From assembly GCA_021774735.1 (NCBI GenBank), contig JAJFIS010000047.1, forward strand, positions 1 through 64,000: a stretch of 64,000 nucleotides of DNA, read 5' to 3'. The notes below the pieces were generated by a model, which worked only from the letters and a program-made list of their open reading frames with translations, was not told where the DNA came from and did not search any database. This DNA comes from Alphaproteobacteria bacterium (lineage in GTDB: Bacteria; Pseudomonadota; Alphaproteobacteria; Sphingomonadales; Kordiimonadaceae). Position 1 is the first letter of the stretch. Every line of letters starts with the position of its first letter. This document shows positions 1-713 of the stretch, one piece after another. Both the position numbers and the translations under genes were made by a program.

Positions 1-95
1 CCAATCAAAGCGGCAGCGCAACGTGCTGTCGTACCCGCTACAAAATGTTCTTGTAATCGTGATCGTTTAGCTTGGCTTAATCTGCTCTTTCTCAT
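1..95 (-). CDS. IS1595-family transposase, N-terminal fragment (runs off the window)
   Basis: Reading from the ATG at 95 toward position 1 gives 31 codons beginning MRKSRLSQAKRSRLQEHFVA and continuing GTTARCAAALIG. This matches the conserved N-terminal helix region of IS1595-family transposases as I know it (MRKSRLS...EHFVAGTTAR.AA.L.GVNRKTA). The DDE-like catalytic domain lies beyond the edge, so intactness cannot be judged. It is the transposase of the element whose outer end lies next to the downstream toxin gene. Confidence 0.75.
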   Translation of the reverse strand, partial: MRKSRLSQAKRSRLQEHFVAGTTARCAAALI

Positions 96-139
96 ACATA
101 CCCCTATAACACAAATTATGCATTATCTGGGTCAGCCCC
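1..139 (-). mobile_element. End of an IS1595-family insertion sequence (truncated by window edge)
   Basis: The minus strand carries the start of a transposase gene preceded by about 44 bp of non-coding DNA. The likely outer end of the element is near position 139, where the minus strand begins GGGGCTGACCCAGATAATG, a G-rich terminus of the kind seen as terminal inverted repeats in this family. The next 8 bp outward (140-147, ATAAATAA) could be a target duplication. The other end is outside the window, so neither the inverted repeat nor the duplication can be confirmed. Confidence 0.6.
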
Positions 140-152
140 ATAAATAATACTT

Positions 153-602
153 ATGCTTAAATTTGATCCCAAGCCCGGACTGGTTCTTGTATGCCAATAT
201 GAGCCTGGATTTAAGATTCCTGAGATGATCAAAAAGAGGTTAGCCATTGTTGTTTCATCCAGACTAAAGGGTCGTGTAGGCCTATGCGCTGTTGTTCCTT
301 TAAGCATGACGGCACCATATGGTGCTCCAAAGCCATGGGAATATGAATTTGATCTTGGACGAGACATGCCCAGCCCATTTGAAGGTCGCATCAAATGGGC
401 AAAATGTGACATGGTGTGCACCATAGGTTATCACCGCCTTACTTTACCTCACACACCTAGGGTTGGCTCCCATGTTGGCCGTAAATATATTCAGCATCAC
501 ATAAGCAAAGACAGCCTAGACCATATCAAATATGGCATTTCCAGATCAATGCAATTGAGTACAATACATATGACAAAGCCCCCACTCGAAAGTGGAGGCT
601 GA
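153..602 (+). CDS. PemK/MazF-like toxin (endoribonuclease family)
   Basis: 149 residues with the arrangement of PemK-like growth inhibitors: an N-terminal strand ending in PGLVLVCQYEPGF, then PEMIKKRLAIVVS (corresponding to the conserved 'K.RP.VVvs' segment with Leu in place of Pro), the VVPLS strand near residues 48-52, and a C-terminal WAKCDMVCTIGYHRL segment matching the family's 'vk.dm..tvs..RL'. Known members cleave mRNA in toxin-antitoxin modules. No protein antitoxin gene precedes it; an insertion-sequence end lies only about 14 bp upstream and no Shine-Dalgarno sequence is visible before the ATG, so expression may be altered or lost. The last codons overlap the terminator hairpin of a candidate convergent small RNA. 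The family call is good; activity is unproven. Confidence 0.75.
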   Translation: MLKFDPKPGLVLVCQYEPGFKIPEMIKKRLAIVVSSRLKGRVGLCAVVPLSMTAPYGAPKPWEYEFDLGRDMPSPFEGRIKWAKCDMVCTIGYHRLTLPHTPRVGSHVGRKYIQHHISKDSLDHIKYGISRSMQLSTIHMTKPPLESGG

Positions 603-678
603 CAAAAAGAGCTAGTAGCTTGTCATCGCATCTAACCCTACCGACTAAGTCGGATTTAAGCCCGCCTAAGCGGATACC
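573..678 (-). ncRNA. Candidate small RNA (about 105 nt) convergent with the PemK-like toxin
   Basis: The minus strand between a sigma70-like promoter and a terminator-like hairpin folds into four successive local hairpins: 673-662 (CCGC/GCGG, loop TTAG), 653-641 (CCGAC/GTCGG, loop TTA), 624-601 (GACAA...TTGTC enclosing AGCT/AGCT), and 599-578 (GCC plus CCACT paired to AGTGG plus GGC, tetraloop TTCG, with one mismatch), the last followed by TTTGTC. The first two hairpins sit in 20-nt units that both start ATCCG and align as an imperfect tandem repeat. No ORF of note is present. The RNA would overlap the 3' end of the toxin gene by about 30 nt in antisense. An RNA antitoxin is possible; the RNA itself is a prediction. 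Confidence 0.5.
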
Positions 679-683
679 TTTAT

Positions 684-713
684 ATATATGTTACATAGTT
701 CACATAAAGTCAA
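684..713 (-). promoter_or_regulatory. Sigma70-like promoter for the candidate small RNA
   Basis: On the minus strand TTGACT (713-708) is followed after 17 to 19 nt by an AT-rich -10 region (CATATA/TATATA, 690-683). Transcription would start near 678, immediately before the first hairpin of the candidate small RNA. Confidence 0.45.

Follow-up and report, generated by a model that had tools for sequence, protein, structure and literature searches.

A MazF/PemK-fold toxin gene and an adjoining three-hairpin RNA as a candidate toxin-antitoxin module

Type III toxin-antitoxin (TA) systems are defined by a repeat RNA, encoded upstream of a ToxN-like toxin gene that lies behind a terminator, and by pseudoknots; every structurally solved type III antitoxin combines tandem repeats with a pseudoknot (PMC5086642). 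RNA can also neutralize a toxin in other systems: in AbiF-RCd22 of Clostridioides difficile, a structured non-coding RNA does so by direct binding and is active in trans (PMC12373285).

The window analyzed here (the whole stretch of 64,000 nucleotides) comes from a genome of 2.78 Mb in 51 contigs, where it forms the start of contig C42. An earlier note on its first few hundred nucleotides, made from the sequence alone, described a PemK-like toxin gene opposite a hairpin-rich RNA. On the evidence given below, we consider it fairly probable that these two genes form a TA module in which a MazF-fold endoribonuclease is accompanied by an RNA that is transcribed separately, consists of a single unit with three hairpins, and is likely a direct inhibitor of the toxin.

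The toxin gene and its upstream neighbor

Two features occupy the left end of the window:
1 to 139, minus strand: terminal part of a multicopy insertion sequence, lying shortly before the toxin start, with copies at the ends of contigs C4, C5, C20, and C41
153 to 602, plus strand: toxin-like gene of the MazF/PemK fold (149 amino acids, subfamily phrog_15698), assigned on the basis of PF02452, phrog_15698, and an AlphaFold2 model

The open reading frame at 153 to 602 is intact, and its product matches PF02452 (PemK_toxin) with an E value of 7.7e-6, exceeding the gathering score, and phrog_15698 with an E value of 5e-19. No other PF02452 gene occurs in the source genome. All 63 subfamily members searched match PF02452 and no other family, with no ToxN-type match among them, and every member tested against PHROG 15698 (the window toxin, L038, L019, and L046) matched that family, to which no function is assigned. 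PADLOC and NCBIfam searches gave no match above the cut-off. While an AlphaFold2 model built from 3 sequences reached a pLDDT of only 33, an input of 63 sequences yielded a mean pLDDT of 92.5, and the best 50 PDB matches listed in a structure search with this model were all MazF and none ToxN. Residues E24, R29, S51, K84, D86, and R95 are invariant in toxin alignments of both 26 and 63 members; the first three align with E24, R29, and T52, the catalytic residues of Escherichia coli MazF. Judging from sequence and model, the window gene is predicted to encode a MazF/PemK-fold RNase with conserved active-site residues and, presumably, a toxic activity.

An 8-bp duplication, ATAAATAA, is found at 140 to 147 and at the end of contig C41 (L072), which reads ...AACAGGG-ATAAATAA, the AGGG resembling a ribosome-binding site. 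Since ATAAATAA is duplicated on both sides, we take the C41 end to be the old upstream neighbor of the toxin gene, joining C42. The insertion sequence splits the start codon from this ribosome-binding region, and the window toxin may therefore be poorly expressed.

The flank on C41 carries a small DUF2484-like membrane open reading frame, and no gene for a protein antitoxin was found beside the toxin gene, either in the window or on that flank. Nor does one recur consistently in relatives, so that the absence of a protein antitoxin reported earlier holds well beyond this locus. In fact, pemK has no conserved protein neighbor at all: upstream of it are dnaN, mnmE, pheS, genes for XRE or LexA-like regulators, or nothing that recurs. 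A small XRE gene precedes pemK in two loci only, where a protein partner is therefore possible.

The three-hairpin RNA and its family

On the opposite strand, the following features were assigned:
708 to 713, minus strand: -35-like element of the RNA, TTGACT, at the same distance from P1 as in 34 relatives
685 to 690, minus strand: -10-like element, CATATA, 17 nucleotides from the -35-like element, read from the sequence
570 to 679, minus strand: gene for an RNA of a new family, with approximate transcript ends, assigned on the basis of held-out covariance matches (609 to 674) and the conserved promoter geometry upstream
661 to 674, minus strand: hairpin P1, UCCGC-UUAG-GCGGG, from the fold; family helix 1, in which all 4 pairs covary
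654 to 660, minus strand: linker CUUAAAU, counterpart of CUUAAGnCC in relatives, from alignment to covariance model R3 and the family consensus
641 to 653, minus strand: hairpin P2, CCGAC-UUA-GUCGG, from the fold; family helix 2
608 to 639, minus strand: hairpin P3, with the conserved apical loop GCGAUGACAAGC at 629 to 618, from the fold; family helices 3 and 4, GAU and CAA near invariant
570 to 600, minus strand: intrinsic-terminator-like hairpin (577 to 600) with a T-rich tail, from the sequence; in most relatives, a terminator directly follows P3

Folding of this region beats 200 of 200 dinucleotide shuffles (z of -2.86). The promoter-like site seen previously on the minus strand was confirmed, with a 17-nucleotide spacer, the promoter geometry being conserved in relatives and the window's promoter-to-P1 spacing being that of the family, as was the terminator-like hairpin (600 to 577 on the minus strand), which overlaps the last codons and the stop (600 to 602) of the toxin gene. 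Of the four short hairpins that had been described, the reading as a structured RNA stands, but conservation extends to three of them and the terminator only; the additional one is an alternative pairing in competition with the third hairpin. Similarly, the two 20-nucleotide repeats starting with ATCCG turned out to be P1 and P2, and because these two differ from each other in relatives, their sequences being unrelated there, they do not constitute a repeat array. Beyond the RNA promoter lies a tRNA-Pro gene (942 to 866).

Toxin homologues were gathered from whole genomes, plasmids, and phages, and the DNA 3' of each was inspected. A narrow covariance model built from 9 close sequences (R1) gave matches adjoining the toxin gene at further loci but missed the window copy; a second model (R2) was built from an alignment of 24 sequences, from which the window was excluded. 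The members share one architecture: the first hairpin is GC-rich and is followed by CUUAAGnCC, hairpin two has the form GnCC...GGC, hairpin three carries GGCGAUnnCAAGC as its apical loop, and a terminator comes last. Two unpaired motifs are conserved, CUUAAGnCC in the stretch joining P1 to P2 and GAUnnCAA in the loop of P3, and conservation across the family is highest in the unpaired regions.

The helices are very strongly supported by covariation. In the 24-sequence alignment, 95.6% of cells are paired, versus 64.9% after shuffling; two-sided changes number 148 (shuffles, 42.9), and the covariation score is 0.806 versus 0.237 for shuffles (at most 0.14 when the partner column was slid). An independent alignment of RNAs from viral contigs, which provided the covariation check that had been proposed, gave 94.8% paired cells versus 61.5% shuffled. 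While alignments fitted to a model are biased toward its structure, the shuffle and slide controls and individual minimum-energy folds concur, and in a structure-blind scan of all column pairs (71 sequences) the top 12 were all structural. The same scan of 71 sequences revealed no non-nested covarying pairs that would signal a pseudoknot, an absence of signal that is no proof of the absence of a pseudoknot. With permissive thresholds, no Rfam 15 family scored above its gathering score; the best match, BjrC68, reached 19.4 bits versus a cut-off of 39 and mostly covered a local hairpin and the terminator. The RNA is a structured RNA gene family absent from Rfam 15 and PADLOC.

To place the window copy, R2 and a third model, R3, both trained without the window, were scored across all 64 kb with no filters. 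Both ranked the same segment, 609 to 674 on the minus strand, first: R2 with 19.0 bits (E value, 0.015) and R3 with 23.7 bits (E value, 0.0075; second best in the window, 16.3 bits). Alignment to R3 matched the linker, P2, and the P3 loop GCGAUGACAAGC position by position. Since held-out models put this segment first, we regard this as the decisive case for the window RNA being a family member beyond chance, even though the copy is divergent (19 to 24 bits) and is missed by the whole-genome pre-filter.

Linkage to pemK, gene order, and transcription

Of 73 held-out loci on viral contigs that encode a PemK of this subfamily, 72 have the RNA adjoining the toxin gene (71 were found with R2 and one more with R3), and the single locus without an RNA match is a partial protein match. 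The check suggested earlier, a covariance search for hairpins conserved beside homologous toxin genes, was thereby passed. In total, pemK is paired with the RNA in more than 100 related loci from bacteria, phages, and plasmids, and the RNA also adjoins pemK in most pemK-positive genomes and plasmids. The converse holds as well. In 251 genomes of the same order, all four RNA matches with an E value of at most 0.01 adjoin pemK. In 240 genomes of the class, all four strong matches fall in pemK-positive genomes, three adjoining pemK and one standing solo, while one weak match (E value, 0.004) is located elsewhere; Fisher's test for the class sample gives about 4e-8, assuming five pemK-positive genomes. 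Nearly all RNA matches across both surveys (about 490 genomes) thus adjoin pemK, and these survey counts are lower bounds, since the pre-filter drops weak copies, including that of the window.

The module was encountered in diverse surroundings. It lies between dnaN and recF in three genera (L038, L039, and L054) and follows mnmE (L026) and pheS (L041), all of them housekeeping operon contexts. In Vinavirales-like phages of Vibrio (L019 and L056; 13-kb tailless-phage records), pemK and the RNA are found at the genome end, behind a gene for a LexA-like repressor. A Neisseria gonorrhoeae record (L047, 2495 to 2968) contains the module, including the RNA, unannotated.

One might suppose that such a module is regulatory rather than toxic, with the MazF-fold RNase processing an sRNA of the mobile element. 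The lack of an assigned function for phrog_15698 and the many members adjoining phage repressor-type genes would suit this idea. However, insertion between dnaN and recF, or after mnmE or pheS, is how a selfish TA module would be expected to scatter, and the active-site residues of toxic mRNA interferases are invariant; we therefore consider this alternative very unlikely.

Adjacency of pemK and the RNA is conserved; strand and order are not. In 66 of the 72 viral loci, the RNA is encoded downstream of the toxin gene on the same strand, 12 to 102 nucleotides away, with two copies overlapping the gene end, and in the other 6 of 72 the order is RNA, terminator, toxin, again on one strand, which is the type III order. 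The convergent layout, previously presented as characteristic, occurs for the three-hairpin RNA in the window only and is better described as a rearranged exception. From the sequence, it appears that the window RNA, together with its promoter and terminator, was inverted compared with its relatives and that the last residues of the toxin were replaced by sequence read through the RNA terminator.

This bears directly on the possibility, raised earlier as antisense action at the 3' end, of a type I-like control in which the RNA pairs with the toxin mRNA. The terminator of the window RNA does overlap the last toxin codons, and regulation of mazEF by antisense RNA is known (PMC8749433). In relatives, however, the RNA lies on the toxin strand, downstream or upstream and mostly without overlap; duplex energies with the own and with foreign toxin mRNAs are alike (z of -0.07 for start regions and -0.26 for the open reading frame); and the covariation in the three hairpins is of the intramolecular kind. 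Because only the window is convergent, we do not regard 3'-end antisense pairing as the mechanism, and we give this alternative hardly any credence. A type I identity was likewise rejected, the RNA being mostly same-strand and non-overlapping, with no excess of own over foreign pairing and a small 3' overlap in the window only.

Evidence for independent transcription comes from the region upstream of P1. In 34 relatives, the best sigma-70-like score ending 5 to 11 nucleotides before P1 averages 8.79 out of 12, versus 5.20 ± 0.19 at random positions, and TTGAC is present in 22 of the 34 upstream stretches versus an expected 4%. In the usual downstream layout, the -35 element lies inside the last toxin codons. 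In addition, one solo RNA (L067, 1501 to 1583, minus strand; G557:C24:29728-29810) comes with a promoter and a terminator of its own but lacks an adjoining toxin gene; this copy could be an orphan antitoxin guarding against an incoming module. The fixed-spacing promoter, the three layouts, and the solo copy together lead us to conclude that this is an independent RNA gene.

These observations also speak to two further explanations. First, the RNA might be a cis-acting 3' or 5' untranslated region, or a transcriptional attenuator, tuning the toxin level, as its usual position just 3' of the toxin gene and the terminator at its end would allow. However, its own promoter-like element stands at a fixed spacing, it also occurs upstream, convergent, or alone, and conserved loop sequences would be superfluous for termination, which makes this reading highly improbable. 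Second, the RNA might assist the MazF-fold protein as cofactor or guide, in a ribonucleoprotein that cuts specific RNAs, for instance those of phages. Strict linkage and a structured RNA suit such an effector too, and the modules reside in phages, plasmids, and islands adjacent to tRNA or housekeeping genes. Yet a variable, guide-like segment is absent, the unpaired regions being the most conserved, MazF-type enzymes work without RNA cofactors, and one RNA stands alone, without the protein gene. We consider this second explanation unlikely.

Mode of action and relation to known systems

That the pairing is strict, a protein antitoxin missing, the active site conserved, and the gene order free fits an RNA antitoxin acting in trans on the protein. 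Most probably, the RNA acts through direct binding to the toxin, blocking its RNA-binding groove, and the unpaired stretches CUUAAGnCC and GAUnnCAA would serve as a tethered pseudo-substrate; these conserved segments are likely protein contacts. Its own promoter would keep the RNA in excess over the toxin, and loss of the RNA, be it through loss of the element or phage shut-off of host transcription, would free the more stable toxin. Toxicity, direct RNA-protein binding, the difference in stability, and the biological role of the module are all inferred here. Counting against an RNA antitoxin is that this RNA lacks the tandem repeats, and any detectable pseudoknot, of the solved type III antitoxins.

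Taken further, the data make it reasonably likely, albeit with less confidence than for the module itself, that we are dealing with a widespread, undescribed TA class in which MazF-fold toxins of type II lineage are neutralized in trans by a single-unit three-hairpin RNA, in variable gene order. The pairing of pemK with this RNA was not described in the full-text literature searched, the scope of which excluded most subscription papers and all preprints.

Other RNAs were observed next to related genes. A second class (GUAGCCC..GAGGC..UUUU.UCCCC..GAGGGACC..AAGCCC, followed by a terminator), apparently unrelated to the three-hairpin RNA, lies 3' of pemK in L046, L048, L049, and L051 and accompanies a longer PemK of gamma- and betaproteobacteria, on plasmids of E. 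coli, Klebsiella, Pseudomonas, and Limnohabitans; in Limnohabitans L055 (2966 to 3036, minus strand) it is convergent, like the RNA in the window. Downstream of a distant PemK subfamily, both L015 and L034 show UGnCCGUUUCCCGnAAGGGA and then a terminator, possibly a third class.

If the proposed class is real, MazF-fold toxins that do not belong to the ToxN lineage have recruited RNA antitoxins as well, perhaps repeatedly, given that the gamma-/betaproteobacterial subgroup is accompanied by at least one other RNA class, apparently unrelated to this one. "Orphan" PemK/MazF genes are often recorded as type II toxins whose antitoxin is missing; should an RNA prove to be the partner, a considerable number of modules in phages, plasmids, and chromosomes would have been misclassified. 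The RNA would be a new family with a clear, testable protein partner, and the module tests whether RNA inhibition of MazF-fold nucleases evolved through repeat arrays only or also through a single folded RNA.

How, then, does the module compare with described systems? The proposal that its arrangement is unlike standard type II and type III systems was upheld, there being no protein antitoxin and a single, non-repeat RNA. With type II MazEF/PemIK (Kis-Kid), it shares the toxin fold and catalytic residues, but a structured RNA, rather than any consistent MazE- or PemI-like protein gene, is the constant neighbor. PHROG 15698 is the same protein family, in whose description no RNA partner appears. 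Outside the ToxN fold, the nearest mechanistic parallel is AbiF-RCd22, in which the RNA is likewise not processed into many repeats; however, the toxin there belongs to another protein family, AbiF/Abi_2, which is related to the origin of Cas13, and RCd22 has two abiF motifs and lies upstream of its gene (PMC12373285). Like type III systems (ToxIN, CptIN, and TenpIN), the module combines an endoribonuclease of the MazF/Kid/CcdB fold class with a non-coding RNA, and 6 of 72 relatives even show the RNA-terminator-toxin order, in contrast to the remaining 66 and the convergent window. Unlike in type III, each locus, in the window and in relatives, holds one three-hairpin unit instead of tandem repeats, the RNA is usually downstream with its own promoter and gives no pseudoknot signal, and the toxin, in sequence and structure alike, is nearest to MazF of type II systems rather than to ToxN, CptN, or TenpN. 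Since repeats and toxin family differ and the gene order agrees in a minority of loci, we do not file the module as type III, although it probably works like one.
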